DNA from: Athalassotoga saccharophila
GTDB lineage: Bacteria; Thermotogota; Thermotogae; Mesoaciditogales; Mesoaciditogaceae
Length of the DNA stretch: 64,000 nt
Assembly (NCBI RefSeq): GCF_009936215.1
Contig: NZ_AP019551.1
Coordinates: forward strand, 1,698,708-1,762,707
Direction of reading: 5' to 3'
Shown: positions 8,605-63,111 of the stretch, piece by piece
Position numbering within the stretch: position 1 is the stretch's first letter
Layout: each line of letters begins with the position of its first letter
Translations under genes and position numbers: made by a program
The notes under the pieces: model-generated
Seen by the model: the letters and a program-made list of their open reading frames with translations, nothing else
Told to the model about the DNA's origin: nothing
Database searches by the model: none

Positions 8605-9750
8605 ATGATAAAGAAATTAAGAATAATGACTCCAGGACCCACACCTGTACCGGTAGATGTTTTGCTCGAAGGGGCACGCGAAACTCTTTATCACAGAAAT
8701 CCAGAATTTTTGAAAATGTTAGAGACGGCATCGAATGATTTAAAGAGCGTTTTCAGAACTAATGGACACGTTTTCATCTTGGCATCTTCGGGAACAGGTT
8801 CCATGGAGGCGGCGGTGGCGAATACTGTAAACCCGGGGGACAAGGTTATAGCGGTAGTAGGTGGCAAATTCGGCGAGAGGTGGGCAGACCTTTGCAAGGC
8901 ATACAATGCAAATATGATCGAGTTGGATATCGAATGGGGGGATTACCTAAGGCCAGAACAGATTGAGAAGTTGTTAAAAGAAAATCCAGACGTGAAGGTT
9001 GTCTTTACAACCTTAAGCGAAACATCGACGGGCGTTGTTAACGATATAAAGTCAATAGCCGAGATCGTGAAAAAGACAAATGCGCTCCTTGTCGTAGACG
9101 CTGTAAGCGGAATCCTTGCAGAACCTCTTGAGACCGATCTGTGGGGTGTTGACATCGTCGTCGCCGGCTCTCAAAAAGCCTTCATGATGCCTCCAGGCCT
9201 TGCATTCGTTGCGGTGTCCGGTGAAAAGGCATGGAAAAGGATCGAAGAGGTTAAGTCTCCGAGGTACTATTTCGATCTGAGGGCATACAAAAAATCCTAC
9301 ACCGATACCCCTTACACGGGGGCGGTAAATCTCGTCTACCAATTAAACAAAGGTCTCGAAATGATAAAGTCCGAAGGAATTGAAAATGTCTGGGCGCGCC
9401 ACGCCATCTTTGGAAATGCCGTCAGAAAAGGTGTGAAGGCATTAGGGCTCGAACTCTTCGCGAAAAAACCCGGAAACGTCGTGACGGCCGTCAAGGTGCC
9501 GGAAGGCATTGATGGATCGAAATTCTTGAAATTTTGTCGCGAGGAATATGGGATGGTCTTTTCGGAAGGGCAATCCCACCTAAAGGGAAAGATCTTCAGA
9601 GTTTCAAATCTCGGTTATGTCGATAAATTGGACATAATATCAGCAATTGCAACGATAGAGATGGCAATGAACAAATTTGGAAAGAAGGTACCGATGGGAG
9701 CAGGCGTGAAGGCTGCCGAAGAGGTACTTTTGGGAGATGAAAGATCATGA
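8605..9750 (+). CDS. Class V (AGXT/serine-glyoxylate type) PLP aminotransferase
   Basis: Fold-type I PLP enzyme of 381 residues, first gene of the seven-gene operon. The family shows in TPGPTPVP at the N-terminus, SSGTGSMEAA (cofactor phosphate loop), VVDAVSGILAEP (the Asp holding the pyridine ring) and VAGSQKAFMMPPG with the Schiff-base Lys at ~191. ATG 8605 is chosen because GAGGAGGAG precedes it. It overlaps the SerA-like gene by ATGA. In other Thermotogota, as I recall, this enzyme paired with SerA makes serine, transferring an amino group to phosphohydroxypyruvate. Alternatives suggested by the operon are ureidoglycine-glyoxylate (PucG-like) or beta-alanine aminotransferase. The family is sure; the substrate is not. 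Confidence 0.87.
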   Translation: MIKKLRIMTPGPTPVPVDVLLEGARETLYHRNPEFLKMLETASNDLKSVFRTNGHVFILASSGTGSMEAAVANTVNPGDKVIAVVGGKFGERWADLCKAYNANMIELDIEWGDYLRPEQIEKLLKENPDVKVVFTTLSETSTGVVNDIKSIAEIVKKTNALLVVDAVSGILAEPLETDLWGVDIVVAGSQKAFMMPPGLAFVAVSGEKAWKRIEEVKSPRYYFDLRAYKKSYTDTPYTGAVNLVYQLNKGLEMIKSEGIENVWARHAIFGNAVRKGVKALGLELFAKKPGNVVTAVKVPEGIDGSKFLKFCREEYGMVFSEGQSHLKGKIFRVSNLGYVDKLDIISAIATIEMAMNKFGKKVPMGAGVKAAEEVLLGDERS

Positions 9751-10664
9751 AGTTCAAAGTTTTAGTCAACGATCCTCTTGCTCCAGATGCGATAAAGATC
9801 CTAAAAAACGCGAATTTAGAGGTAGAGGAGAGAGAATATTCGAAAGAAGATCTGCCAAAGCACATTGGAGAATACGATGGAATAATAGTAAGAAGTGCGA
9901 CAAAGGTTACAAAAGAGGTCATAGAGGCTGGAAAAAAGTTAAAGGTCATAGGACGTGCCGGAGTCGGCCTCGATAACATAGATTTAAACGCTGCGAAAGC
10001 GCACAATGTAACTGTCTTGAGCACTCCCACGGCAAATGCGATAAGCGTTGCAGAACTCGTTTTTGGGTTTATGATCTCGGTATCGCGCCACATTGTAACT
10101 GGCACTGCAACTTTAAGAGATGGAAAGTGGGAAAAGAAAACCCTTGAAGGAGTTGAACTTTACGGCAAAACCCTCGGCATAATAGGCTTTGGAAATATAG
10201 GGGCAGAGGTTGCAAAAAGGGCCTTTGCATTTGGAATGAAGGTCATAACCTACGATGTAATTCAAAACAAGCGCGGTCTTGAGGTCGAATTCGTTCCTTT
10301 AAATGATCTCCTTAAAAATTCAGATTACATAACTGTCCACCTTCCACTTTTGGATTCGACAAAACACATAATATCCGATGCACAATTCTCGATGATGAAA
10401 AAATCCGCGATTTTTGTTCATGCGGCACGTGGCGGGATAGTAGATGATAGGGCACTTTTGAACGCTCTAAAGACCGGCAAAATCGCAGGCGCTGCCCTTG
10501 ATGTCTTTGAATCAGAACCATTGGACGAGATCGGCCGCCAGATCGTCTCGATGCCAAATGTTGTCGCAACGCCGCATCTTGGCGCCTCAACGATAGAAGC
10601 ACAGGGCAGGGTGGGACGTGAGATAGCGGAAAAAATCGTAGAATTCTTCAAAGGGGTGAAGTGA
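9747..10664 (+). CDS. serA: D-3-phosphoglycerate dehydrogenase-like 2-hydroxyacid dehydrogenase (short form)
   Basis: NAD-dependent D-2-hydroxyacid dehydrogenase of 305 residues. It has the substrate segment GRAGVGLDNID, the Rossmann motif GFGNIGAEVAKRAFAFG, catalytic Arg in HAARGGIVDDRAL, Glu in DVFESEPL and His in VATPHLGAST. It lacks the C-terminal ACT/ASB regulatory domains of longer SerA proteins, so no serine feedback site is present. The gene overlaps the aminotransferase by 4 bases and ends directly before the YgeY start. With the aminotransferase it would give the first two steps of the phosphorylated serine pathway. In this operon it could instead act on glyoxylate, hydroxypyruvate or another 2-oxoacid. 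Confidence 0.85.
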   Translation: MKFKVLVNDPLAPDAIKILKNANLEVEEREYSKEDLPKHIGEYDGIIVRSATKVTKEVIEAGKKLKVIGRAGVGLDNIDLNAAKAHNVTVLSTPTANAISVAELVFGFMISVSRHIVTGTATLRDGKWEKKTLEGVELYGKTLGIIGFGNIGAEVAKRAFAFGMKVITYDVIQNKRGLEVEFVPLNDLLKNSDYITVHLPLLDSTKHIISDAQFSMMKKSAIFVHAARGGIVDDRALLNALKTGKIAGAALDVFESEPLDEIGRQIVSMPNVVATPHLGASTIEAQGRVGREIAEKIVEFFKGVK

Positions 10665-11864
10665 ATGGTATCTCCACAGGACATATTGAAAAAGGCCTAC
10701 GAGTACGAAAAAGATGTCGCGCAATTTTTGAGAGACATAGTGGCCATTCCAAGTTATTCCGGTCAGGAAAAGGCCGTTGTTGACAGAATCGCAGCGGAGA
10801 TGAAAAAGGTTGGCTTCGACGAGATCAAAATAGATGGCCTTGGGAATATCTTTGGAAGAATTGGGAATGGAAAGACGAAGATAGCCATGGATGCGCATAT
10901 CGATGTTGTCGGGATTGGAGATCCAACCCAGTGGAAACATGATCCTTTTAAGGGTAAGGTGGAAAATGGGATAATTTACGGAAGGGGCGCCGGAGATCAA
11001 AAGGCCGGCATGGCCTCTATGGTGTATGCCGGGAAGATAATAAAAGATCTTCATCTTGAAGGAGATTACACACTCTACGTTGTTGGATCTGTGATGGAAG
11101 AGGAATGCGATGGATTATGCTGGCAATACATAGTCAAAGAGGATAAATTCATTCCAGATTACGTTGTAATAACGGAACCTACGAATCTCAATATCTACAG
11201 GGGCCACAGGGGAAGAATAGAGGTTGAAATCAGGACGAAGGGTAAATCTGCTCACGCGGCAATGCCGGAGCGTGGAGAAAATGCCATCTACAAAATGGCA
11301 AGGATAATTTTGGGAATTGAAAAGTTAAATGAGAAACTCAAAGTCGATCCATTTTTGGGAAAGGGGACGGTTGTGGTATCACAGATCTTCTTCAAATCCC
11401 CATCAGAAAATGCTGTCGCCGATGAGTGCACGATCCATATAGACAGAAGGCTTACAGCGGGAGAAACAAAAGAAAGTGCCATCGAAGAGTTCAAAAAGGT
11501 TATAAAAGAGGCCGGAGTTGAGGCCGAGGTGATCGAGTTAACCTACCATGGAAAGGCCTACACGGGGAAGGAATACTCTGCGGAAAAGTATTTCAGAACA
11601 TGGGTTATGGACGAAAAATCCGAAGTAGTTCAGGCCGCCGTCAAGACCTACAGAGAACTTTTTGGATCTGAGCCCAAGGTAGACAAATGGAATTTTTCAA
11701 CCAATGGAGTCGCAACGGCAGGTCTTTTCAAAATACCGACCGTGGGCTTTGGCCCTGCTAATGAGATATATGCCCACGGTATTGACGATCAGGCACCAAT
11801 AGATCATCTTGTAAAAGCGGCTGCTTTTTACGCATATTTACCTCAAAAAATAGTGAAGGAGTGA
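10665..11864 (+). CDS. ygeY: M20-family metallohydrolase, YgeY type
   Basis: Zinc-dependent amide hydrolase of the M20 peptidase/deacylase clan, 399 residues. Metal ligands and catalytic residues are all visible: DAHIDVVG, GRGAGDQKAGMASMV, the Glu pair in MEEECDG, TEPT, and YAHGIDDQAPIDHL near the end. KWKHDPFKGKVENG-like spacing and GAGDQKAGM are typical of the YgeY branch, which sits in anaerobic purine/uric acid gene clusters. It is usually annotated as a putative selenium-metabolism hydrolase. The ATG abuts the preceding TGA, with GGGGTG nine bases upstream. The YgfK/YgeW/HyuA/SsnA-type neighbours support a role in ring-opened purine or ureide hydrolysis. It could also be an N-carbamoyl amino acid hydrolase. 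Confidence 0.85.
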   Translation: MVSPQDILKKAYEYEKDVAQFLRDIVAIPSYSGQEKAVVDRIAAEMKKVGFDEIKIDGLGNIFGRIGNGKTKIAMDAHIDVVGIGDPTQWKHDPFKGKVENGIIYGRGAGDQKAGMASMVYAGKIIKDLHLEGDYTLYVVGSVMEEECDGLCWQYIVKEDKFIPDYVVITEPTNLNIYRGHRGRIEVEIRTKGKSAHAAMPERGENAIYKMARIILGIEKLNEKLKVDPFLGKGTVVVSQIFFKSPSENAVADECTIHIDRRLTAGETKESAIEEFKKVIKEAGVEAEVIELTYHGKAYTGKEYSAEKYFRTWVMDEKSEVVQAAVKTYRELFGSEPKVDKWNFSTNGVATAGLFKIPTVGFGPANEIYAHGIDDQAPIDHLVKAAAFYAYLPQKIVKE

Positions 11865-11868
11865 TAAA

Positions 11869-12879
11869 ATGGGTACTCTGTTGCGCGGAAGACATTTCAT
11901 TACGACGCAAGATTTCACAAAGGAAGAAATCGATCTGATGTTAGAAACTTCCTTTGATCTCAAAAGGAGGTTTGCAAGGGATGAGTTAACGCCATGGCTG
12001 CTCTACAAAACGGTCTTCATGATCTTCTACGATGAATCGACAAGGACAAGAAACTCAATAGAGGCCGGTATAACCCAGTTAGGCGGCCATGCCCATTATC
12101 TCGTGCCTGAAATGATGCAGGCGCATCATGGAGAAACGCCCGCCGACACGGCCAAGGTTTTGAGCAGATTCGGTCATGCGATAGCGGTAAGACATTGCGC
12201 ATTCGGACAGGGAAATAAGTTCTTAAGAGATCTCGCGGCAAATTCGAATGTTCCAGTTTTGAACCTTCAGGATGATGTCTACCATCCAATGCAGGTTTTA
12301 GCCGATCTGATGACCATTCAAGAAAGGTTTGGAAAGAACCTAAAAGGTCTTAAGGTTGGAATAAGTTGGGCTTACGCGGAAAGCCATCTTAAACCACTTT
12401 CGGTACCTCAATCTCAGATATTACTCTTTGCAAGGTATGGAATGGACATAACTCTTGCCTATCCGGAGGGATTCGATCTGATGCCGGACATCGTCAAGCA
12501 GGCAAAACTCAACGCCGAGGCCGGAGAAGGTAAGTTGACGATAACGCATAATATGGATGAGGCATTCAAAGATGCGGACGTCGTCATTCCAAAATCATGG
12601 GGAGGATTTTACACTATACCCAATCCATTGGAAGCAGACAAATACAAGGACAAAATATGGGCCGAGGCTGCAAAGCACAAGGACTGGATATGCGACGAAA
12701 GAAGAATGAGCCTTACAAAGAAACATTCGGTGTACATGCATGCCCTTCCGGCAGATCGCGGAAAAGAGGTTGTTGATTCGGTTATAGATGGCCCACATTC
12801 GATAGTTTGGGACGAGGCCGAAAACAGGCTTCACACGGCGAAGGCTGTTATGGCCTTGACTATGGGAGGAAGGCCTTGA
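11869..12879 (+). CDS. ygeW: Knotted carbamoyltransferase, YgeW type
   Basis: Member of the aspartate/ornithine carbamoyltransferase family, 336 residues. The carbamoyl-phosphate site is intact: STRTR at 57-61 and YHPMQVLADL (HPxQ). The second-substrate region reads HALPADRGKEV, unlike the HCLPA of ornithine carbamoyltransferase, and fits the YgeW branch of still debated substrate. It would either carbamoylate an amine or, more likely in a breakdown operon, phosphorolyse a ureido compound to carbamoyl phosphate, which can yield ATP via carbamate kinase. No carbamate kinase gene is in the window. The ATG is 4 bases after the YgeY stop with an AAGGAG SD. Confidence 0.87.
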   Translation: MGTLLRGRHFITTQDFTKEEIDLMLETSFDLKRRFARDELTPWLLYKTVFMIFYDESTRTRNSIEAGITQLGGHAHYLVPEMMQAHHGETPADTAKVLSRFGHAIAVRHCAFGQGNKFLRDLAANSNVPVLNLQDDVYHPMQVLADLMTIQERFGKNLKGLKVGISWAYAESHLKPLSVPQSQILLFARYGMDITLAYPEGFDLMPDIVKQAKLNAEAGEGKLTITHNMDEAFKDADVVIPKSWGGFYTIPNPLEADKYKDKIWAEAAKHKDWICDERRMSLTKKHSVYMHALPADRGKEVVDSVIDGPHSIVWDEAENRLHTAKAVMALTMGGRP

Positions 12880-14273
12880 ACGATTTGGGAATAACAGGTG
12901 GAAAGATCTTTGACGGCTTCAGATCGTACATTGCGAATATTTACATCAGAGATGGTCGCATAACTGCGATCACCTCTGATTATCTCGAATCAAAAGAAAA
13001 TTACTCTGCTGTTGGCAAGTACGTTATGCCCGGCCTTATAGATCCTCACGTGCATTTTTCGCTTTCTTTGGGTAAATACAGATCGGCAGACGATTTTGAA
13101 TCTGGATCTGTAAGTGCCGCCTTTGGAGGAATTACGACTTACATCGATTTTTTAGATCCGGTTACACACGAAAATGAAATAGAGGAAAAGTTTTTAAAAA
13201 GATTGAAAGAGGCAAAAAATTCTCACATAGATTATTCATTCCACATGACTATAGCCCATCCGGACATCGATCCGGTTACCCTTGCAAAACGCACTCTCGC
13301 CTTAGGAATAAATAGCATAAAAACCTTCACAACCTACAGCACATCAAACCGCATGACAGATAACGGATATATTTTGGATTTACTCTCGATAACGAGGAAA
13401 TATGGAATAATCGAAACCTTTCACGCTGAAGATGACGCCATAATACTTCACAGATCGAAGATAAAAGAAAAGCACTTGCCTCAGGATCTCCCATTTTTGC
13501 ATCCTTCTGAATCTGAAGCATCGGCTGCCATGAGTATAGTGACAATGGCAAAATTGACAAATGGTCAGGCTTACATCGTTCACAATTCGAGCGGCCTTTC
13601 AGTTCAAATGATAAAGCAGTTAGACGCTTTCGAAAATGTGAGACTTGAAACGTGTCCTCAATATCTTGTCCTAAATGATACTCTGTATGAAAGAGACGAT
13701 GCTTATCTTTACACATTGGTTCCTCCTTTAAGATCTCGCTTGGAATCATTTTACCTTTACGAGGCACTCAAAGATGGATCGATCTCGACTGTCGGAACTG
13801 ATCACTGTCCATTCACAAAAGCAGAAAAGTTTGAAAACAGGCTCAATTACGATTCGATGCCAAATGGAATCGGTGGGGTTGAGACATCCTTCGTTTTGCT
13901 TTACAACAAGGATCGATCGGAAAAAATCATCAACGATCTTGTGAGAGTGCAAAGTGTCAACGTTGCCGAAACCTTTGGCCTTAAAAACAAGGGAAAGATC
14001 GTCGTAGGTGCCGATGCAGATATAGCGATCTTCGATCCGACTTTTAAATGGACAATTGGCATATCAAATCTCCACACAAAGGCGGACTACACGCCATATG
14101 AAGGAAGAGATGTGATCGGCAAATTCGTCTCTGTCTTATCGAGAGGAAGATTCGTCATCAAAGACGGAGAATTTGTCGGAAAAAGGCTAAGAGGAAAGTT
14201 CGTAAAAAGGAGGAAAGTCTTTTGGCCTACACGATCGGAAATGCCGTTATTTACACGGGAGATGAACTTATAG
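12876..14273 (+). CDS. hyuA: Dihydropyrimidinase/hydantoinase-family amidohydrolase (HyuA)
   Basis: Binuclear-zinc cyclic amidohydrolase of 465 residues that opens hydantoin- or dihydropyrimidine-like rings. Metal ligands are present: DPHVH (His58, His60), the carbamylated Lys in SIKTF near 150, FHAEDDA, YIVHNSS and the Asp in GTDHCPF. The frame is open further upstream inside ygeW. TTG 12876 is chosen because GGGAGGA lies five bases upstream and it overlaps the ygeW stop as TTGA. The C-terminal tail overlaps the next gene by 52 bases, and its last ~17 codons may be non-essential. In purine-degradation clusters HyuA is thought to act on a ring intermediate after xanthine or uric acid reduction. 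Confidence 0.9.
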   Translation: MNDLGITGGKIFDGFRSYIANIYIRDGRITAITSDYLESKENYSAVGKYVMPGLIDPHVHFSLSLGKYRSADDFESGSVSAAFGGITTYIDFLDPVTHENEIEEKFLKRLKEAKNSHIDYSFHMTIAHPDIDPVTLAKRTLALGINSIKTFTTYSTSNRMTDNGYILDLLSITRKYGIIETFHAEDDAIILHRSKIKEKHLPQDLPFLHPSESEASAAMSIVTMAKLTNGQAYIVHNSSGLSVQMIKQLDAFENVRLETCPQYLVLNDTLYERDDAYLYTLVPPLRSRLESFYLYEALKDGSISTVGTDHCPFTKAEKFENRLNYDSMPNGIGGVETSFVLLYNKDRSEKIINDLVRVQSVNVAETFGLKNKGKIVVGADADIAIFDPTFKWTIGISNLHTKADYTPYEGRDVIGKFVSVLSRGRFVIKDGEFVGKRLRGKFVKRRKVFWPTRSEMPLFTREMNL

Positions 14274-15508
14274 AAGACGGTTACGTCTCCTTTGAAGATC
14301 ATATAATCTCGGCCGGTAAGATGGGTGATTTGAAATCAAAGATAGATTACAACGCACACGGAATGCTTTTAATGCCGGCGTGGATCAACGCACACACCCA
14401 TATTTATTCGTCTCTCGCGAGAGGAATGAACATTCAATTCAACCCAAAAACATTTACCCAGATACTCGATCAACTATGGTGGAAACTCGATAGAAATTTA
14501 GGCCGTGCCGAAATAGAGGCAAGCGCTTACGCGGCTGCGGCCGATCTTATTCACGCAGGTGTATCGACGATCTTCGATCACCATTCAAGCCAGAACTTCA
14601 TCAAAGGATCTTTATCCATTTTAAAAAGTGTCATTGTCGATACTGCCGGAATGAGAGGAATTTTCTGCCACGAAACGAGCGATAGAGATGGAACCCAGAT
14701 CGAGTCTATAGAAGAAAATTTAGATTTTTACAAATCGAATAGATCCAATACAGTTTCCGGCATGATGGGATTGCACGCTTCATTTACCTTAAGCGATACC
14801 ACCCTAAGAGACGTTTCGAAAGCGTGCGATGGAAAGGTACCAATCCATATCCATGTTGCCGAAGGGATAGAAGACGAGTTGTATTCGATAAACGATTATG
14901 GTATCAGAATAATCGAAAGACTTGACAAATATGGACTAACCATCCCAAATTCTATCTATGCGCATTGCATACATATAGACGAATCCGAGGCAGAGACGAT
15001 AGGCAAAAGCAGAGGATTTATAGCAAATGCGACCCAGTCTAATATGAACAACGCCGTTGGGATAGCGGACATAAAAATGCTAAGTAAACACACGAAGGTA
15101 GTCATAGGCGATGATGGATTCGGCTTTTCTCCACCCTTCGATTTGAGAATAACCCCTCTCGGTCAGAAGATCGCAAAAAATTCTCCAACTGCCTTTTCGA
15201 CTGTCGATTTGAAATCTTTGATAGACAATACCTTTGAACTCGCATCTAACCATCTCAACTCAAAGTTTGGAAAGATAAAGACCGGATATGCGGCCGATCT
15301 TATGCTAATAGATTACAGATCCCCAACGCCTATGATCAAAGAGAACTTCTGGGATCATATATTCTTTGGAATTGGTGCACCGGTAAGATCTCTCTTTATC
15401 AACGGCAAACCCGTAATGATAGATGGTGAAATAAAGACCTTCGATGAAGGTGAAGCGAAAAAAGAGTCCAGAAGGATAGCCCAAATTCTGTGGGACAAAT
15501 TAAAGTAA
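14222..15508 (+). CDS. ssnA: SsnA-type amidohydrolase/aminohydrolase
   Basis: Amidohydrolase-superfamily protein of 428 residues related to guanine/cytosine deaminase-like enzymes and to SsnA of the purine-degradation cluster. Metal-site residues: WINAHTHIYSSLARGM (His58, His60), HVAEG, YAHCIHIDESE and the Asp in VIGDDGFGFSP. The SsnA signature of a GDDGFG-like loop followed by a short C-terminal beta domain (TGYAADLMLIDYRSPTP) is present. The start is TTG with AAAAGGAGGAAAG upstream, 52 bases inside the end of hyuA. Proposed role: deamination or hydrolysis of a purine-derived ring or ureide. Confidence 0.86.
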   Translation: MAYTIGNAVIYTGDELIEDGYVSFEDHIISAGKMGDLKSKIDYNAHGMLLMPAWINAHTHIYSSLARGMNIQFNPKTFTQILDQLWWKLDRNLGRAEIEASAYAAAADLIHAGVSTIFDHHSSQNFIKGSLSILKSVIVDTAGMRGIFCHETSDRDGTQIESIEENLDFYKSNRSNTVSGMMGLHASFTLSDTTLRDVSKACDGKVPIHIHVAEGIEDELYSINDYGIRIIERLDKYGLTIPNSIYAHCIHIDESEAETIGKSRGFIANATQSNMNNAVGIADIKMLSKHTKVVIGDDGFGFSPPFDLRITPLGQKIAKNSPTAFSTVDLKSLIDNTFELASNHLNSKFGKIKTGYAADLMLIDYRSPTPMIKENFWDHIFFGIGAPVRSLFINGKPVMIDGEIKTFDEGEAKKESRRIAQILWDKLK

Positions 15509-15521
15509 GGGGGGAGAAAAG

Positions 15522-16601
15522 ATGGATCTTTCTACCGAAATAGCAGGACTTAAACTCGAAAACCCTCTAATGCCGGCAGCAGGCCCGCTGACGGGCGATG
15601 ATAAAAAAATGAAATACGTAGCCTCTCTCGGTGTTGGAGCAATGGTGACAAAGACGATCTCCACCGAGGCAGCAAAGGTCCCAAGGCCCTGTATCGTCGC
15701 AACAAAAGATTACGTTGTAAACGCAGAGTTGTGGTCAGAATATGGACCAGACAAATGGATAGAGGAATTCTTGCCGGGAATTCAATCTTTAAGAATTCCA
15801 AAGATCATAAGCATAGGATATTCAAAATCACAGATAGAATATCTCGTGCCACGATTAAAAGATTTCGGAGATGCCTTTGAAATCTCAACCCATTACACCG
15901 GAAAGGATATAGCACCAATAATCGAGATCGCAAAAAGCGCGATAAAATTATCGAAAAAACCCGTATTCATGAAGGTTAGCCCTCACATGCCTGATCCCGT
16001 AGAATTCGCTCAAAAAATGAAGGAAATCGGTGTATCTGGCATAGTCGCCGTTAACTCTTTTGGACCCGTTTATTACGTTGATCCAAAGTTCGGTCATCCA
16101 ACTCTCGGATCTGAGAATAGATATGGCTGGATCTCCGGACCGATAATAAAGCCAATCGCGCTTTCAATAGTCCTGAGAATAAAGCAAAACGTCGATATAC
16201 CGGTCATTGGAGTTGGGGGAGTAAGGACTGCCGACGATCTCGTCGATTTTCTTGAAGTTGGGGCATCGGCCGTCGGAATGCTTTCATCCGCTTTGATATA
16301 CGGTAAAGAACAGTACAGAAGGATAATCAGCGGTCTTGAGATGGCTCTGAAAAAAAGAGGATACGCGTCCTTAAAAGACGCGATAGGGAGCAAAATCGAA
16401 AAAAAACCTGCTGAATTCACGGTGAGAAATCCTCAAATAGATACTCAAAAGTGCACACTTTGTAAAATGTGCGAATATGTATGCCCCTACTTTGCCATAA
16501 CGGTAACAGATCACGTTGAGGTTGACACAGATGCATGCTTTGGATGTGGACTGTGTCAGACAAGGTGTCCGGTCGATGCGATAAGCGGTGTACTTGGATA
16601 A
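15522..16601 (+). CDS. PreA-like dihydropyrimidine/dihydroorotate dehydrogenase with two 4Fe-4S clusters
   Basis: An FMN-dependent TIM-barrel oxidoreductase (~residues 1-300) fused to a bacterial-type ferredoxin domain. The barrel shows LENPLMPAAGPLTG, PVFMKVSPHM, VAVNSFGP, GVGGVRTADDL and GASAVGMLSSALIYG. The C-terminal clusters are CTLCKMCEYVCP and CFGCGLCQTRCP. This layout matches PreA, the catalytic subunit of NAD-dependent dihydropyrimidine dehydrogenase. It is also the barrel part of much larger YgfK proteins (~1,000 residues), but at 359 residues it is only that module. No PreT/FAD partner lies beside it. As the last gene of the operon it probably supplies the ring-reducing step, with electrons from an unlinked partner or ferredoxin. 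Confidence 0.85.
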   Translation: MDLSTEIAGLKLENPLMPAAGPLTGDDKKMKYVASLGVGAMVTKTISTEAAKVPRPCIVATKDYVVNAELWSEYGPDKWIEEFLPGIQSLRIPKIISIGYSKSQIEYLVPRLKDFGDAFEISTHYTGKDIAPIIEIAKSAIKLSKKPVFMKVSPHMPDPVEFAQKMKEIGVSGIVAVNSFGPVYYVDPKFGHPTLGSENRYGWISGPIIKPIALSIVLRIKQNVDIPVIGVGGVRTADDLVDFLEVGASAVGMLSSALIYGKEQYRRIISGLEMALKKRGYASLKDAIGSKIEKKPAEFTVRNPQIDTQKCTLCKMCEYVCPYFAITVTDHVEVDTDACFGCGLCQTRCPVDAISGVLG

Positions 16602-16618: not shown

Positions 16619-16651
16619 AACAATTCCGGCATGATTGCCGGAATTTGTTTT
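16619..16651 (+). terminator. Intrinsic terminator of the purine/hydantoin-type operon
   Basis: AATTCCGGCA / TGCCGGAATT stem with a TGAT loop, extended by flanking A-T pairs to about 13 bp and followed by TTTTT. It lies 18 bases after the stop of the PreA-like gene. The remainder of 16652-16769 is AT-rich with nothing recognised. Confidence 0.9.
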
Positions 16652-33151: not shown

Positions 33152-34240
33152 TTATCTTAACGCTATGCCAACATTTTGCAATTCGTATTTTCTGCTTCCA
33201 AGGCCTATCTTTTCAGCGTGCGCAAGTTGTGCCTCCCAAGATACATCCGGATGTGCTTCTTTGAAAGGATCCTTTCCAACCTGCTTTATCACAAGATCTA
33301 TGCATGCCTGATCGAGCGCTACAGGATCTGTACTTGCGGCAATGCCTATGTCTGGAGCGACAGGAGGACGGTTAATCGACCAGCAATCGCAATCAGGAGA
33401 AACATTCGTTATAAAAGATACGAACAATCCCTTTTTATCTTTGAGAACGGCCTTTGTGTATTCGGCTATTTTCATACTCAAAAGTTCTGAAGAGGCATTC
33501 CATTGCGGGACCATGGCACCGTAATTGCACATGGCAACGCACTGACCACAACCTATACACGTATCGTAATCTATGACGGCATACCTTTTTCCATTCTCGA
33601 ATTTCACGACCTTGACGGCACCGGTAGGACAGTACCTCTCGCACATTCCGCAGGCCGTACAGTTATCAACGTTCACAACTGGCTTTGATGTGGAATGTTG
33701 CTCGAGTTTGCCCGCTCTCGAGGCCGATCCCATTCCAAGATTCTTCAAAGTGCCGCCAAAACCAGTCTGCTCATGACCTTTAAAATGGGTAATGGCTATG
33801 ATAACATCTGCAAGCGCTATTGCAGAACCTATCTTCGCATTTTTTACGTACTCGCCATCGATGGGAACCTCTGTCTCATCATTTCCTCTAAGCCCGTCGG
33901 CTATTATTACTGGCATTCCAGTAACTTCTTGAGCAAAACCGTTGACCGTTGCGGTCCAGAGATGATCGACGGCATTCGTTCTACTGCCTTTGTAAAGCGT
34001 GTTTGCATCCGTAAGGAATGGCTTCCCGCCAAGTGATTTGATTCTGTCCGCTATAACCCGGGTGTAATTTGGTCTTATGTAGGCCATATTCCCGTATTCT
34101 CCAAAGTGAATCTTTACAGCGACAAGATCGTCCTTTTTAATTATCCGGGAAATGCCGGCTTTCTCCACAAGGATTCTCAATTTGTCAAGCAGCCCCATTC
34201 CCGGCGTTGTCGTCATATCCGTAAAATAAACAACAGACAT
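33152..34240 (-). CDS. DUF362 protein with 2[4Fe-4S] ferredoxin domain
   Basis: 362-residue iron-sulfur protein of the DUF362 family. Two cluster motifs near residues 190-240 are CTACGMCERYCP and CIGCGQCVAMCN, inserted in the DUF362 fold (VAVKIHFGEYGNMAYIRP, KGHEQTGFGGTLKNLGMG). Family members are common in anaerobes and are presumed electron carriers or regulators, but the reaction is not settled. The ATG has AAGGAGG six bases upstream. It follows the larCBE genes by 63 bases and might be co-expressed with them. Confidence 0.85.
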   Translation of the reverse strand: MSVVYFTDMTTTPGMGLLDKLRILVEKAGISRIIKKDDLVAVKIHFGEYGNMAYIRPNYTRVIADRIKSLGGKPFLTDANTLYKGSRTNAVDHLWTATVNGFAQEVTGMPVIIADGLRGNDETEVPIDGEYVKNAKIGSAIALADVIIAITHFKGHEQTGFGGTLKNLGMGSASRAGKLEQHSTSKPVVNVDNCTACGMCERYCPTGAVKVVKFENGKRYAVIDYDTCIGCGQCVAMCNYGAMVPQWNASSELLSMKIAEYTKAVLKDKKGLFVSFITNVSPDCDCWSINRPPVAPDIGIAASTDPVALDQACIDLVIKQVGKDPFKEAHPDVSWEAQLAHAEKIGLGSRKYELQNVGIALR

Positions 34241-34303
34241 GGTAAATCCTCCTTTTCAATTAATCAACCTTTCTTAATTTGCGTGCATTCGTAATCGATC
34301 ATC

Positions 34304-35509
34304 TCAAAGTTCAAAAGAAGAATAAACATTCATGTAAACTTCTTTGATGGGCACACGAAAATCAGACGATATTTTCTTGCAATCTTCGTACTCTGGAGAG
34401 AAGTTGACCACCTTTCCGTTAAGCAGTCCGACTTTAACCCTTACCTTTCCCCATTTTGTCTTTACCTCTCTCATTTCCCTTTCGAGAGTTTCCCTCTCGG
34501 CATCAAAGATCCTAACTCCAAGTGTCGTAGTCTCCGTTAAAAGTATGGCATTCAACTTTTCTACATTCTGTTCTTCTGCGATCACGCTTATTTTAATGGC
34601 CGGGCGGTTCTTTTTCATCTGAATAGGTGTAAAATAAACGTCTAAAGCGCCTTCGTGAAATAATTTTTCCATTATCGACTCGTAAAATTGTGGATTCATA
34701 TCATCTATATTCGTCTCTATGACCTTTACCCTTTTAGAAATCCTTTCCACTCTTCCAAGACTTACTCTCAAAAGATTTGGTATCTCTATCTCATAGGTGC
34801 CGGCACCGTATCCGATCTTCTCCACACTCATAAGCGGCCTCGGTCCAAAATAAGAGGACAGCGTCGTTATTATTGCAGCCCCCGTAGGTGTTGTGAGTTC
34901 TTTTTCTGTTCCGCTCGAATATATCGGGACATTCTTTAAAAGTTCGGCGGTGGCCGGAGCCGGAACGGGTAATTTCCCATGTGCGGCCATCACATATCCC
35001 TGACCTGTGTTTATGGGGGAAGCGTATATCCTGTCAATTCCCAGCATTTCGAGTCCTATGACAGATCCCACTATGTCAACGATGGCATCGACCGCCCCAA
35101 CTTCGTGAAAATGAATCTCATTTATATCTGTTCTGTGAACCTTCGCCTCGGCCTTTGCAAGGTTCATAAAGATCGCCTTACTTTTTTCCTTCACGTTCTT
35201 TGAAAGTTCACTCGAGTCTATTATTTTATTTATATCTTCCAGATTTCTTCCGTGATGATGATCGTGATCGCCATGATGATCGTGATCCTCATCGTGATCG
35301 TGATGATGCAATTTCACATCAACGTAGGTTCCTCCTATGTGAGACCTTGAAACTTTTTGAGCCGTTATTTCATACTCATCTTCCAAATGTAATTTTCCAA
35401 GTTCGGATTTCAAAAGTTCAAGATCGAGCCCGAGATCTATCAAAGATCCAAGGGTCATATTTCCGCTTATACCTGAAAACATTTCGAAATAGGCGTCCAC
35501 AAAGATCAC
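34304..35509 (-). CDS. larC: Nickel-pincer cofactor biosynthesis protein LarC (single full-length frame)
   Basis: CTP-dependent nickel insertase that completes the pincer nucleotide cofactor of lactate racemase-type enzymes. The 401-residue protein has FSGISGNMTLGSLIDLG, IHFHEVGAVDAIVDIVGS and TTPTGAAIITTL, and a His/Asp-rich stretch (HHHDHDEDHDHHGDHDHHHG) near 70-90 suited to Ni binding. Lactobacillus larC needs a frameshift joining larC1 and larC2; here both halves lie in one frame. GTG 35509 overlaps larB by GTGA. A GTG three codons in (35500) with GAGGAG eight bases upstream is an alternative start. Confidence 0.92.
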   Translation of the reverse strand: MIFVDAYFEMFSGISGNMTLGSLIDLGLDLELLKSELGKLHLEDEYEITAQKVSRSHIGGTYVDVKLHHHDHDEDHDHHGDHDHHHGRNLEDINKIIDSSELSKNVKEKSKAIFMNLAKAEAKVHRTDINEIHFHEVGAVDAIVDIVGSVIGLEMLGIDRIYASPINTGQGYVMAAHGKLPVPAPATAELLKNVPIYSSGTEKELTTPTGAAIITTLSSYFGPRPLMSVEKIGYGAGTYEIEIPNLLRVSLGRVERISKRVKVIETNIDDMNPQFYESIMEKLFHEGALDVYFTPIQMKKNRPAIKISVIAEEQNVEKLNAILLTETTTLGVRIFDAERETLEREMREVKTKWGKVRVKVGLLNGKVVNFSPEYEDCKKISSDFRVPIKEVYMNVYSSFEL

Positions 35510-58415: not shown

Positions 58416-59180
58416 TTACTCCTCTTTAAAGATATTGTTTTCTGCCGGAAAGGTCCGTGACTTGACATCTTTTATGTATTCCAAAAGCGCTGTTTCGATC
58501 TCTTCATTGAGATTTGCGTACTTTTTTACGAATTTGGGCACTTTGCCGTCATTTATTCCAAGCAAATCGTGCCAGACAAGCACCTGACCGTCGCAATATC
58601 TTCCAGCGCCTATTCCTATCGTTGGTATGGAAAGACTCTCCGTTATCGATTTGGCAGTCTCTTCAACTGTCAATTCAAGGACTATCGAAAAAATACCGGC
58701 ATTCTCGAGAGATTTCGCAGATCTCATCATTCTCTCCTTATCCGGGCCTTTCCCCTGAACCCTGTAACCACCGATCTGGTTTACGGACTGGGGCGTAAGG
58801 CCTATGTGACCCATAACAGGTATGCCAGCATCCACAAGTTTTCTTACAAGTGAAGAAACTCTTTCCCCTCCCTCAACCTTGACTGCATTGGCGCCGGCCT
58901 TCATCAAACGTCCGGCATTCTTTATTCCTTCTTCATCGGAGATCTGGTAGGACATAAATGGCATATCACCAATTATGAATGAATTGGGTGCTCCACGCCT
59001 TACGGCCATGATGTGGCGTTCCATATCTTCCATCTCAACGTTAAGGGTAGATTCGTATCCCAACACCACATTTCCCAAAGAATCCCCGACAAGAATCATA
59101 TCTATTCCGGCACGATCGCACACCTTCGCGCTGAAATAATCGTAAGCGGTTACAACCACTATTGGTTCCTTACCCTTCAT
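58416..59180 (-). CDS. panB: 3-methyl-2-oxobutanoate hydroxymethyltransferase (ketopantoate synthase)
   Basis: First committed enzyme of pantothenate/CoA synthesis. The 254 residues from ATG 59180 carry VVTAYDYFSAKVCDRAGIDMILVGDSLGNVVLGYEST, GANAVKVEGG, GHIGLTPQSVNQIGGYRVQGK and PTIGIGAGRYCDGQVLVWHD. The usual N-terminal helix (like VTVLDLLKMKG) is encoded in frame just upstream (59181-59210: LKLNILKILQ) without an ATG, GTG or TTG, after a TGA at 59211-59213. Start is therefore either ATG 59180 (weak SD) or a CTG at 59204. It overlaps the DUF2520 gene by 11 bases. Confidence 0.93.
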   Translation of the reverse strand: MKGKEPIVVVTAYDYFSAKVCDRAGIDMILVGDSLGNVVLGYESTLNVEMEDMERHIMAVRRGAPNSFIIGDMPFMSYQISDEEGIKNAGRLMKAGANAVKVEGGERVSSLVRKLVDAGIPVMGHIGLTPQSVNQIGGYRVQGKGPDKERMMRSAKSLENAGIFSIVLELTVEETAKSITESLSIPTIGIGAGRYCDGQVLVWHDLLGINDGKVPKFVKKYANLNEEIETALLEYIKDVKSRTFPAENNIFKEE

Positions 59181-60000
59181 CTGAAGAATTTTGAGAATGT
59201 TCAGTTTTAATCACCCTCTCTCTGAGAATCTGGGCAAATTTACCGTAGAGTATACCTATGTCTGGATCGAGATCCATCAATGCCATTCTTTCTGCCTCAA
59301 CAAGGTGGTAATCTCCGCGCACCACAGGACCTGTGAGTGCTCCTCTTATTCCGAGAGACTGAACATTTTCAACTGCCTGCTTAGAAAGAAAAGTCGAAAT
59401 CTCACGGGCAGTTTCGCTGTCTAAACCCGCCATTGAATACAATTCGTTCGATATTTCCTGAATACCGACCACAAAGTTCGAGGCAAAGACGGCCGCGACA
59501 TGGTAGAATATCTTCTTTTCTTCGGCAATTTCGCTGAATTTTATACCAAGACTTCCAAAAAGTTCACGGATTATCTCCTTTCCTTTTTTGTTTCCGTCCA
59601 TCACGAAATGGATTTCATTTATTCTTTCCCATATTCTCGAATTTGCAAATGAGGCATTTGGATGGATCGAAAACCTTCCAATTTCCATCTCGTCGCACTC
59701 TCTCAATATCGAAGAAGGATAAGCGCCGCTGAAATGTCCGACGGCCTTAACGCCAGCAAGTTTGTCTTTTACACCCAAAAAGATCTGCCTTATCCTGTCA
59801 TCGTTGACGCCTATCAAAAGCACATCACATCCACCGATTTCATCGATCGATGACGGAATTCCATCTCCAATGAACTCAACGGCCCTCTTTGAAGAGTCCA
59901 AAGAGGAATTGACGACATGATTTATTTTGTGGCCCTTGCTTGAAAGGTACTTTCCAAAGGTCTTACCGACCCTTCCCGCTCCGATGATATCGAATACCAA
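59170..60000 (-). CDS. DUF2520 Rossmann-fold oxidoreductase, candidate PanG-type ketopantoate reductase
   Basis: 276-residue NAD(P)-binding protein. The N-terminal Rossmann domain has IIGAGRVGKTFGKYL and DVLLIGVNDDRI. AVGHFSGAYPSSIL and the C-terminal helical DUF2520 domain (FYHVAAVFASNFVVGIQEIS; LTGPVVRGDYHLVE) follow. This two-domain layout is like 6-phosphogluconate dehydrogenase-type reductases. PanG, an alternative ketopantoate reductase in some bacteria, belongs to this kind of protein as I recall. The direct overlap with panB supports the same role here. Start TTG 60000 has AAGGAG nine bases upstream. The function is inferred from context. Confidence 0.75.
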   Translation of the reverse strand: MVFDIIGAGRVGKTFGKYLSSKGHKINHVVNSSLDSSKRAVEFIGDGIPSSIDEIGGCDVLLIGVNDDRIRQIFLGVKDKLAGVKAVGHFSGAYPSSILRECDEMEIGRFSIHPNASFANSRIWERINEIHFVMDGNKKGKEIIRELFGSLGIKFSEIAEEKKIFYHVAAVFASNFVVGIQEISNELYSMAGLDSETAREISTFLSKQAVENVQSLGIRGALTGPVVRGDYHLVEAERMALMDLDPDIGILYGKFAQILRERVIKTEHSQNSSDEG

Positions 60001-60003
60001 ATC

Positions 60004-60834
60004 TTAACTCCTTTCAAGAATGTAGTTGAACCTGTATATCAAATTCCGGCAAAGCCTTCTTCTGTACTCGGCACTTCCACGCACATCGTCTATGGGCTTA
60101 ACACCGCTGTAAGCCATCATCGAAATCTCTCTTATCAAATCTTCGTCCAACTTTTTATCACGGGTGAATTCCTCTATTTCGTGCATTCTCAAAACAGTCG
60201 GTCCGACAGATCCAAAGGCGATCCTCATTTCTTTGACGATACCATCCTCAATTTTGAAAAGAGATCCAATACTCGCAATAGAGATTGTCATAGAATTCCT
60301 CTGACCAACCTTTTCAAAATACCTGTGTGTCCATTCTTCCTTCTCTATTATAATGCTCTTTACATACTCTTTGTGATCTAAAATGGTCTGGCCCGGCCCC
60401 CGAACGAATTCTCCCACCGAATACCTTTTCCCATTTGATACTTCCACTTTGGCATCCAAAAGGTAGAGGGCAAGAAGTCCATCTCCTGCAGGAGAAGCAT
60501 TAATCAGATTTCCGACAAGCGTTGCCCTATTTCTTATCTGTGGAGATCCTATCGAATAGATCGCATCGTAAAGTATGGGAAATGCTTTTTTTACAGGCTC
60601 AAAATCCAAAAGTTCCGAATAGGTGACATTTGCGCCGATTATCAATTCTTTACCGTCAAAGCCGAGCGCGTGGAATGTTGGAACTCTCAAAGTGCTCACT
60701 ATTTTAGATGGATTTATCTTTCCAATCCTCATTTTTACGAGGAGATCCGTTCCTCCTGCCATTATCATACTCTTTTCATCGTATATTTCATCTCTGAATT
60801 CTCTCTCATTTTTTGGCATGACAAATTTAGCCAT
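60004..60834 (-). CDS. Xanthine dehydrogenase-type FAD-binding subunit
   Basis: 276-residue FAD subunit of a molybdenum hydroxylase (xanthine dehydrogenase, CO dehydrogenase medium-subunit family). FAD contacts: SMIMAGGTDLLVKM and GSPQIRNRATLVGNLINASPAGDGL. The C-terminal CO_deh_flav_C domain is present (EYRRRLCRNLI). ATG 60834 is chosen because AAGGGG has nine-base spacing; it overlaps the MocA-like gene by 8 bases. It would pass electrons from the 2Fe-2S subunit to NAD or another acceptor. The molybdenum-binding subunit is not in the window. Confidence 0.9.
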   Translation of the reverse strand: MAKFVMPKNEREFRDEIYDEKSMIMAGGTDLLVKMRIGKINPSKIVSTLRVPTFHALGFDGKELIIGANVTYSELLDFEPVKKAFPILYDAIYSIGSPQIRNRATLVGNLINASPAGDGLLALYLLDAKVEVSNGKRYSVGEFVRGPGQTILDHKEYVKSIIIEKEEWTHRYFEKVGQRNSMTISIASIGSLFKIEDGIVKEMRIAFGSVGPTVLRMHEIEEFTRDKKLDEDLIREISMMAYSGVKPIDDVRGSAEYRRRLCRNLIYRFNYILERS

Positions 60835-61375
60835 CCTCACCAGCCCCTTCCAAATCTTCGGGAAGATCAACATCAAAAACACAGGATCGCGTCCATTCGA
60901 AGGTTAGATATTCACTCTTCATTATTAAATCCCTTAAACCTCTGTCTCCTTCTATTTCGTAAGCGCTTTTGAAATAATTCGATGGTATAAAGACCGGAAA
61001 ACCCTTTATGCCGTTGAAATTGGGAAAGACTATTTTGTCCTTTGACAAACTTACGACCTTCTGGACGAGTTGAGAATCTATTTCGGGCATATCTCCCAAA
61101 AATATGATAACGTCTCTTCCGTTTGCCGCCGTAAGACCCAACTTTATCGAATTAGAGAGACCCAAATCCGGATTTTTGTTCAAAATTATCTCTAACTTTT
61201 TAACACTTATCTTTGAAAGATCCAATTTTTCAGAAACGATCAAAAATCCATTTGAAAAATTTTCTTCGACGACGTTTATCGTCCATTGAATTAAAGGTTT
61301 ACCCTTGTAAGGGTAATTCAATTTCTGGACTCCAAACCTCCTGCTCTCTCCCGCCGCAAGGATTATGGGAATCAA
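60827..61375 (-). CDS. Molybdenum cofactor cytidylyltransferase-like protein (MocA/YgfJ type)
   Basis: 182-residue nucleotidyltransferase of the MobA/MocA fold that charges molybdopterin with CMP for xanthine dehydrogenase-type enzymes. The N-terminal loop IILAAGESRRFGVQKLNYPYKGK and the metal-site FLGDMPEID are diagnostic, and GLSNSIKLGL is the ribose-binding part. It overlaps the 2Fe-2S gene (ATGA) upstream and the FAD gene downstream. YgfJ-type genes are typical companions of purine-degrading hydroxylases, including selenium-dependent ones. MobA (GMP) activity is less likely given the context. Confidence 0.87.
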   Translation of the reverse strand: MIPIILAAGESRRFGVQKLNYPYKGKPLIQWTINVVEENFSNGFLIVSEKLDLSKISVKKLEIILNKNPDLGLSNSIKLGLTAANGRDVIIFLGDMPEIDSQLVQKVVSLSKDKIVFPNFNGIKGFPVFIPSNYFKSAYEIEGDRGLRDLIMKSEYLTFEWTRSCVFDVDLPEDLEGAGEDG

Positions 61376-61824
61376 ACCTTTCCTGCCGCCTTCTTTACGG
61401 CCTCGATTATTCTAAAATATCCTGTGCACCTGCAAAGATTCCCCTCAAGTCCTTTCTTTATATCCTCTTCGGAAGGATGGGGATTTTTCATGAGTAGAGC
61501 CTTTGTAGACATTTCCATTCCGGGCGTACAAAAACCACACTGGACGGCTCCTATCTCCGCAAATGCTTCCTGGACGGGATCGAGTTTATCCTTACCAAGG
61601 CCTTCGGTCGTCAAAACATCCGTTCCGTCGAGTTCGGGCGCCAGCATAAGACACGAAACAACATTCTTACCGTTGACGATGATCGTGCAGGCTCCGCATT
61701 CTCCCTCGCCACATCCTTCTTTCACGCTTTTCATTCCTATTCTTCTTAGAAAATCGAGAGCCCTCTCATCTTCCTCAACATTTTCTTCTCTTTCCTCTCC
61801 GTTCAATTTGAATTTTATTATCAT
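61372..61824 (-). CDS. Xanthine dehydrogenase-type 2Fe-2S subunit
   Basis: 150-residue electron-transfer subunit with two [2Fe-2S] clusters. The plant-ferredoxin-type cluster has GCGEGECGACTIIV plus a fourth Cys at ~58 (Cys38, 43, 46, 58). The second, all-helical domain has CGFCTPGMEMSTKALL and LEGNLCRCTGYFRI. ATG has AGGAGG upstream, 9 bases after the threonine synthase-like gene. It would link the missing molybdenum subunit to the FAD subunit. The family includes xanthine, nicotinate and CO dehydrogenases; the MocA-like neighbour favours a purine hydroxylase. Confidence 0.93.
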   Translation of the reverse strand: MIIKFKLNGEEREENVEEDERALDFLRRIGMKSVKEGCGEGECGACTIIVNGKNVVSCLMLAPELDGTDVLTTEGLGKDKLDPVQEAFAEIGAVQCGFCTPGMEMSTKALLMKNPHPSEEDIKKGLEGNLCRCTGYFRIIEAVKKAAGKV

Positions 61825-61833
61825 TGAAGCCTC

Positions 61834-63057
61834 CTATATTATCCCGCTCTTTCTTAGCGCATCCTTAACGCTTGATGGATCGGCCTTGACGTAATTGACC
61901 TGACCGGTGAAATTTCTCGCCGATCTTATGTCCTTAAGACCATTTCCGGTGATGAAAACAACGACACTTTTTCCGTGAAGATCCTTTGCGATCTTTTTAA
62001 GGCCTGCGTAGGCAGTCGATCCGGCAGGCTCGGCAAAAACACCGCTTTCGCGCGCGAGTTCGATTATGGCATGACCTATTTCTTCGTCCGTTACAGAAAC
62101 GAAGTATCCTCCCGATTCTTTGACCCATTTGCATGCCTTCAAAACATCTCTTGGTTTTCCAACGCTTATACTGTCGGCGATCGAATGGGCATCTATATCG
62201 ACAGGCTTATCGAAATGACCAGATTCAAAGGTTCTCATGACGGCGTTGGCTCCTTCGGCCTGTACACCGATTATTTGAGGAATCCTATCAGTAAATCCCG
62301 CCATCTTCATATCTTTAAATCCTTTGTATATAGAACTGACAACAGTCCCATCGCCCACACTTACAATCGCAACATCCGGCACATGGCCTATCTGGATGGG
62401 AACCTCCATCGATCCTGTCTTTTTGCCCTCGAGAAGGTATGGATTTATCGCAGAATTTCTCGTATACCATCCAAATTCTTCTCCTATCTCCATCGAAAGA
62501 TCGAAGGCCTCATCGTAACTTCCATCTACGGCCATAACGGTTGATCCGTAAACCAAAAGTTGCGTTATCTTGGCCTCGGGAGCGGTTTTTGGCACGAAGA
62601 TAACGCTCTTCATTCCAGAAGCCGCGCTTAACCCAGCCAGAGATGAGGCGGCATTTCCGGTAGAGGCGCAGTAGACGATCTCTTTCTTTAAGGCCTTTGC
62701 CTTTGATATCGCCATGGCCGTCGCCCTGTCTTTGTAAGAGGCCGTCGGATTTCTTCCATCATCCTTTATCCACAAATTTGAAAGGCCCAATTTTTTTGCC
62801 ATCTCTTTTTTCTCGTAAATCGGCGTATTTCCTATAAAAAGTGGTACTTCGTAATCATTTCTTTCAAGGGGCAGAAGTTCTTTAAAGGCCCAAATACCCT
62901 TGGATCTGAGATCTTCCAAAGAAATATCGACCTTTGGATATTTCTCAAAGACAATCTCTAACGTGCCAAGTCTTGGACCACATTTTGGGCAGGTGTAGAT
63001 ATTCTCATCCGGATCGTAAGTGGAACCACAATTTAAACATCTCAAAAAATAACTCAA
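61834..63057 (-). CDS. thrC: Threonine synthase-like PLP enzyme with zinc ribbon
   Basis: 407-residue fold-type II PLP enzyme. An N-terminal zinc ribbon (Cys7, Cys10, Cys23, Cys26) precedes the PLP domain with NPTASYKDRATAM, whose Lys binds PLP, then STGNAASSLAGLSAASGMKSVIFVPK, GDGTVVSSIYKGF and GNGLKD near the end. This matches archaeal/bacterial threonine synthase (O-phosphohomoserine to threonine). TTG 63057 is chosen because AAAGGGG lies eight bases upstream. No thrB, hom or other threonine gene is near; it is co-directional with xdh genes. A 2,3-diaminopropionate lyase-like role cannot be excluded from context. Confidence 0.85.
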   Translation of the reverse strand: MSYFLRCLNCGSTYDPDENIYTCPKCGPRLGTLEIVFEKYPKVDISLEDLRSKGIWAFKELLPLERNDYEVPLFIGNTPIYEKKEMAKKLGLSNLWIKDDGRNPTASYKDRATAMAISKAKALKKEIVYCASTGNAASSLAGLSAASGMKSVIFVPKTAPEAKITQLLVYGSTVMAVDGSYDEAFDLSMEIGEEFGWYTRNSAINPYLLEGKKTGSMEVPIQIGHVPDVAIVSVGDGTVVSSIYKGFKDMKMAGFTDRIPQIIGVQAEGANAVMRTFESGHFDKPVDIDAHSIADSISVGKPRDVLKACKWVKESGGYFVSVTDEEIGHAIIELARESGVFAEPAGSTAYAGLKKIAKDLHGKSVVVFITGNGLKDIRSARNFTGQVNYVKADPSSVKDALRKSGII

Positions 63058-63079
63058 TTTTCTATCCCCTTTCTTTTCA

Positions 63080-63111
63080 ATTATATACCAAATAAAATTC
63101 AAATTCCGAAT
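63080..63111 (-). promoter_or_regulatory. Recurring promoter element before thrC-xdh genes
   Basis: Minus strand: ATTCGGAATTTGAATTTT, A, TTTGG, TATATAAT, 22 bases before the TTG start. 30 of 32 positions match the atoD copy. MeaB ends only 10 bases upstream. Confidence 0.7.

Follow-up and report, generated by a model that had tools for sequence, protein, structure and literature searches.

The 64,000-bp window of the Athalassotoga saccharophila genome analysed here (C1:1698708-1762707, contig NZ_AP019551.1) carries a seven-gene operon at positions 8605-16601, whose third to seventh genes very probably encode the middle and late steps of the reductive route by which uric acid is degraded anaerobically via yanthine. 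The remaining steps are assigned to genes elsewhere in the genome, and the place of the lyase YgeX is given to a threonine-synthase-like pyridoxal phosphate (PLP) enzyme that we call TSPALP. This reading is built on gene content, synteny, co-occurrence and signature residues, and takes its reactions from work with purified enzymes of Escherichia coli and Clostridioides difficile (Li et al., 2025; PMC12507026). There, XdhD converts urate to yanthine, which is reduced by YgfK, or by UacX in C. difficile, in a step to which SsnA couples the opening of a ring; HyuA then yields 2,3-diureidopropionate, YgeW or UacY together with YgeY produces 2,3-diaminopropionate, and YgeX forms pyruvate and ammonia. 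The order in which the two ureido groups are removed is still disputed (commentary, PMC12990295).

Transferred to A. saccharophila, the pathway would begin with an XdhD-type molybdenum enzyme of the xanthine dehydrogenase (XDH) family, XDH2 (C1 ~294.4-298.0 kb), which would convert urate to yanthine. UacX would remove the aromaticity of yanthine, and SsnA and HyuA would open the two rings to give 2,3-diureidopropionate. YgeW would phosphorolyse one ureido group to carbamoyl phosphate, from which carbamate kinase could form ATP, and YgeY would hydrolyse the other, leaving 2,3-diaminopropionate, which TSPALP would split into pyruvate and ammonia. The bases could be supplied by a second XDH, an adenine deaminase and an 8-oxoguanine deaminase. 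By analogy, we infer that the Thermotogota orthologs catalyse the same reactions as their characterized counterparts, with ferredoxin as the electron donor.

Operon structure and family assignments

The host genome belongs to the Thermotogota, measures 2.04 Mb and is 91.6% complete; its closest named relatives are metagenome-assembled genomes (MAGs) of Mesoaciditoga. All genes of the overlapping seven-gene unit given in a preliminary description of the window are present, on the forward strand, with gaps of at most 13 bp and overlaps at three junctions, so that a single transcript is very likely. A class V aminotransferase (BhcA/AGT-like, 8605-9750) and a SerA-like D-2-hydroxyacid dehydrogenase (9747-10664) precede YgeY, an M20 hydrolase predicted by homology to cleave the second ureido group (10665-11864), and a YgeW-type carbamoyltransferase, by homology the presumed producer of carbamoyl phosphate (11869-12879). 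There follow a HyuA-type cyclic amidohydrolase (12876-14273), an SsnA-type aminohydrolase (14222-15508) and the predicted yanthine reductase UacX (15522-16601). The TTG start codons of HyuA and SsnA, at 12876 and 14222, are preceded in the sequence by purine-rich ribosome-binding sites. An intrinsic terminator with a 10-bp stem closes the operon (16622-16645, forward strand), as had been described; the single promoter proposed along with it found no support, as a scan of the region returned 22 promoter-like matches against 21.9 expected by chance. The order YgeY-YgeW-HyuA-SsnA-UacX is repeated across many Thermotogota families, which argues that the block did not arise by chance; among cultured species, Marinitoga lauensis has the block from YgeY to UacX.

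Family calls were made with NCBIfam profiles and their curated cut-offs. Only YgeY, of the operon proteins, scores above its cut-off (587 against 321 bits); identities to the E. coli K-12 proteins amount to 52% for YgeY, 39% for YgeW, 35% for HyuA and 31% for SsnA. HyuA and SsnA are nevertheless homologs in a conserved gene order, and YgeW, despite its score, carries the E. coli YgeW motifs WAY...KPLSVP and PKSW, which are missing from ornithine (OTC) and aspartate carbamoyltransferases (ATC). On account of these motifs and of the separate OTC and ATC that the genome encodes, an ordinary OTC function for YgeW is rejected. Homology and gene order thus bear out the earlier assignment of these four proteins to the core families of the uric-acid-type purine cluster of gut bacteria. 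The proposal of an ATP-yielding route through carbamoyl phosphate also holds as the likely energy product, judging from YgeW in the operon and from a carbamate kinase encoded at another place on the chromosome. The kinase gene is unlinked (C1:1802599), and constitutes unspecific evidence because nearly all Thermotogota have one.

Identity of UacX and XDH2

The last protein of the operon, initially described as a PreA-like dehydrogenase, is better assigned to UacX. It has a DHO_dh domain and, at the C terminus, two 4Fe-4S clusters, but no flavin adenine dinucleotide (FAD) domain. In a phylogenetic tree whose sequences did not include C. difficile UacX itself, it groups with proteins from purine clusters of Clostridium, Bacilli and Izemoplasma; E. 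coli PreA and PyrD fall outside this clade. The motif N-x-S-C-P, present in all the proteins used for comparison (E. coli PreA, three PyrD, three PreA-like), occurs in none of the 107 proteins of the UacX clade, 106 of which have STHY; its absence speaks against uracil as the substrate. As far as can be judged from these features, UacX is the clostridial counterpart that replaces YgfK. The cluster varies within the phylum: family f7 genomes (L043, L051-L053) show layouts with the XDH genes inside the cluster and a cysteine-synthase-like PLP enzyme, PALP463, ahead of YgeY, and a more distant UacX (39%) is found in L087 (G048).

A genome-wide search for XDH large subunits, as the preliminary description had suggested, retrieved two, both outside the window (loci L071 and L072). 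To tell them apart we used Glu606 of E. coli XdhD, a residue absent from XdhA and proposed to orient the substrate (Li et al., 2025). In an alignment of 109 proteins it is found in 48 of 48 XDH2 and in none of 59 XDH1 sequences, nor in E. coli XdhA, and the large subunit of the host XDH2 (C1 ~295.7-298.0 kb, L071) carries it. Because of this residue, and because XDH2 groups with E. coli XdhD in the tree, XDH2 appears the better candidate for the conversion of urate to yanthine, and XDH1 for the oxidation of hypoxanthine and xanthine.

Co-occurrence and a proposed terminal lyase

Across 103 Thermotogota genomes the uric-acid gene set is an all-or-none trait. In 67 of them UacX occurs together with XDH, the remaining 36 have neither, and the genomes with YgeY above its cut-off (63), TSPALP (66) or SsnA (65) all lie within the positive 67 (Fisher p < 1e-22 each, uncorrected for relatedness). 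In several families YgeY is isolated on its contig stretch, with UacX and TSPALP located elsewhere.

YgeX exceeds its cut-off in none of these 103 genomes, and YgfK nowhere in the phylum, in keeping with their reported absence from the operon. What, then, could complete the pathway? Among 51 named loci that span 15 kb or more, which are not mutually independent, 28 contain TSPALP, 13 contain YgeX, ten contain neither and none contains both. Loci with TSPALP near UacX come from Thermotogota, a spirochaete MAG, Izemoplasmatales, Bacilli and Vallitaleaceae, those with YgeX from Clostridiaceae. TSPALP retains the lysine of the SxKDR motif; residues invariant in the threonine synthase ThrC are altered in all 62 aligned TSPALP sequences and retained in all six Thermotogota threonine synthases. 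The arginine of NPYR (of NPYR-EGQK) is replaced by leucine or methionine, GNAGN by GDG, and AIRIGNP by a different motif. These pocket changes, together with a separate threonine synthase at C1:1052559, rule out TSPALP as the threonine synthase of the cell. Given this, the lack of YgeX and the exclusive distribution of the two proteins over the loci, TSPALP is likely to be a diaminopropionate lyase that replaces YgeX.

A dispersed cluster

In the relatives G011, G016 and Mesoaciditoga (WGFY01000074.1) the genes form one continuous cluster in the order aminotransferase-SerA-YgeY-YgeW-HyuA-SsnA-UacX-TSPALP-Fe-S subunit-MocA-FAD subunit-XDH2 FAD-XDH2 Fe-S-XDH2 large subunit. In A. saccharophila this run is split in three, namely the operon at 8605-16601, a block on the reverse strand at 60004-63102, and the XDH2 genes in L071; what is contiguous in the relatives has been broken up in this lineage. 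The second block comprises TSPALP (61834-63102, with its true start probably near 63054), an XDH 2Fe-2S subunit (61372-61824), a MocA-like molybdenum cofactor cytidylyltransferase (60827-61375) and an XDH FAD-binding subunit (60004-60882). Since the XDH1 large subunit of Bacillota clusters adjoins Fe-S and FAD subunits of the same kind, those at 60004-61824 probably serve XDH1. A further operon (C1 ~569-576 kb, L072) combines the gene for adenine deaminase with those for PALP463, the large subunit of XDH1 and an 8-oxoguanine deaminase that scores above its cut-off. The pathway has therefore been rearranged, as had been supposed; it is not truncated, with two XDH systems and a candidate lyase present in the genome and partly within the window.

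On both sides the second block is flanked by genes for a MeaB-type GTPase, a Rossmann-like protein and a PanB-like protein (58416-60000 and 63121-63945, reverse strand), apparently in the same operon. Elsewhere in the window, a nickel insertion protein (PF01969, LarC family) lies beside a DUF362 protein with ferredoxin-like clusters (33152-35509, reverse strand); these are possible cofactor genes for lactate racemase.

Alternative explanations

The aminotransferase and the SerA-like protein do occupy the first positions of the operon, and have been considered pathway steps in which the lyase would yield serine or a keto acid that proceeds to glycerate via hydroxypyruvate. The pair overlaps the head of the operon here, and in family f9, too, it directly precedes YgeY. 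However, 99 of 103 Thermotogota genomes encode the aminotransferase, nearly always as a single close copy, genomes free of purine genes included, and in most it is unlinked; genus g3, from the same family, has it on a different contig than the purine block. This distribution, counted for the aminotransferase, rules out the two proteins as the replacement of YgeX and makes pathway steps of this kind very improbable. We regard them as probably housekeeping proteins that share the transcript, SerA being the partner of the aminotransferase, with a presumed role in serine or glycerate metabolism like that of the TM1400-TM1401 pair of Thermotoga maritima. A more serious competitor for the lyase step is PALP463 (463 residues; L072:6766-8157, C1 ~570.3-571.7 kb). 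It is a PLP enzyme as well, whose gene accompanies those of XDH1 and adenine deaminase in Thermotogota and that of TSPALP in clusters of Bacillota-related lineages, so that it could be the diaminopropionate lyase in an otherwise unchanged pathway, with TSPALP employed otherwise, or the two enzymes could divide the stereoisomers between them. We consider this unlikely, as PALP463 also stands beside YgeX, at four loci: an enzyme that accompanies YgeX as well as TSPALP does not behave as a substitute for YgeX, whereas TSPALP and YgeX are never found together.

More far-reaching would be a different substrate altogether. Reductive pyrimidine degradation, which the preliminary description had offered as its alternative, would have PreA/PydA act on uracil, HyuA on dihydrouracil, YgeY in decarbamoylation, and the aminotransferase and SerA on β-alanine and the semialdehyde. 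The PreA-like combination of a DHO_dh domain with C-terminal Fe-S clusters and the best score of HyuA, which is to dihydropyrimidinase, are compatible with it; yet SsnA and YgeW have no role in such a pathway, the aminotransferase is distributed independently of purine genes, and on the lack of N-x-S-C-P in UacX, together with its strict co-occurrence with XDH, we reject the pyrimidine reading as very improbable. Somewhat closer to the uric-acid pathway, a related reductive route could act on a ureide or on a different purine of the 8-oxo or hydroxylated type, for example products formed by hydroxylation of hypoxanthine, with urate not the main substrate. The divergence of SsnA, HyuA and YgeW would fit this, as would the presence of two XDHs, an adenine deaminase and an 8-oxoguanine deaminase. 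Since XDH2 retains Glu606 of XdhD and the gene order agrees with that of UacX-type clostridial clusters, we deem such a route improbable and favour urate.

Several observations nevertheless weigh against the uric-acid pathway in this organism. The scores of YgeW (218 against 453 bits), SsnA (381 against 444) and HyuA (334 against 393) fall below the NCBIfam cut-offs, which marks these proteins as divergent family members, and the branch of E. coli XdhD in the tree is long, so that its exact placement is unsure. No purine transporter was identified, and the literature searched, mainly openly accessible papers, yielded neither growth nor enzyme data on purine use by any Thermotogota. The cofactor is a further difficulty. 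MoaA and MoaC perform steps one and two of molybdopterin synthesis, yet neither was found in the host genome or its genus, nor in roughly half of those XDH-bearing Thermotogota genomes that are near-complete, of which three consist of a single contig (G022, G052, G080); the moaC matches in G050 and G083 are partial and contain stops. Despite this, two XDHs are kept and MocA is encoded within the cluster. The molybdenum enzymes may thus lack their cofactor, unless the cells import the pterin or synthesize it in a way that escapes recognition; this counts against the functional reading without refuting it.

Implications

The pathway itself is already known; its occurrence in Thermotogota and the substitution by TSPALP are new relative to the literature covered. 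That literature has nothing on the pathway where it deals with the degradation of purines or uric acid in Thermotogota or Thermotoga, and no text in it links threonine synthase to uric acid and diaminopropionate. The anaerobic uric-acid pathway of gut bacteria would thereby extend to Thermotogota, with TSPALP as a single enzyme that can be tested directly as the replacement of YgeX, and with two simple sequence markers, the absence of N-x-S-C-P for UacX and the presence of Glu606 for XdhD. It is puzzling that molybdenum enzymes are intact in genomes in which MoaA and MoaC cannot be recognised. As a tentative generalization, to which we would give rather less than even odds, Thermotogota and several Bacillota-related lineages finish the pathway with a PLP lyase of threonine-synthase descent, and roughly half of the Thermotogota with XDH and a near-complete genome operate two molybdenum hydroxylases although they cannot make molybdopterin. 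If so, the latter must import the cofactor or a precursor, or use an unknown route.

Comparison with known systems

In a cultured bacterium of the Izemoplasmatales fed DNA and RNA, a cluster with XDH and Fe-S proteins is raised, as are dihydropyrimidinase and adenine deaminase (PMC10470597), which would provide indirect support if this cluster is of the present type. C. difficile grows on xanthine and urate by a selenium-dependent route (PMC11448449). Its UacX-type pathway, described in an article whose main text does not name Thermotogota (PMC12507026), has the FAD-less UacX, SsnA, HyuA, YgeY and an XdhD-type XDH in common with A. saccharophila, but employs UacY and YgeX where the Thermotogota genome has YgeW and the threonine-synthase-like enzyme. 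With the E. coli genes ygeW-ygeX-ygeY-hyuA-yqeA and ygfK-ssnA-ygfM-xdhD, A. saccharophila shares YgeW, YgeY, HyuA, SsnA, XdhD and MocA, whereas YgfK and YgeX are missing here, carbamate kinase is unlinked, and XDH2 consists of separate Fe-S and large subunits, which are fused in E. coli XdhD.

Closer in arrangement are the UacX/YgeW/YgeX clusters of Clostridium (C. polyendosporum and C. algoriphilum, for example), which have the same order YgeY-YgeW-HyuA-SsnA-UacX, followed by the XDH2 subunits, but a true YgeX in place of the threonine-synthase-like enzyme. The clusters of Izemoplasmatales, Bacilli and Erysipelotrichaceae contain the same set of UacX, SsnA, HyuA, YgeW, YgeY, TSPALP, XDH1 and XDH2 in another gene order, with PALP463 adjoining TSPALP. 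Finally, Barba et al. (2013; PMC4016543) described a 'dehydrogenase X1' beside hyuA, ygeW, ygeY, ssnA and xdh and suggested a role in purine and pyrimidine catabolism; their main text names no Thermotogota and does not discuss the lyase. The neighbours are the same as those of UacX, and it is by this gene context, rather than by alignment, that we judge our protein to be X1.

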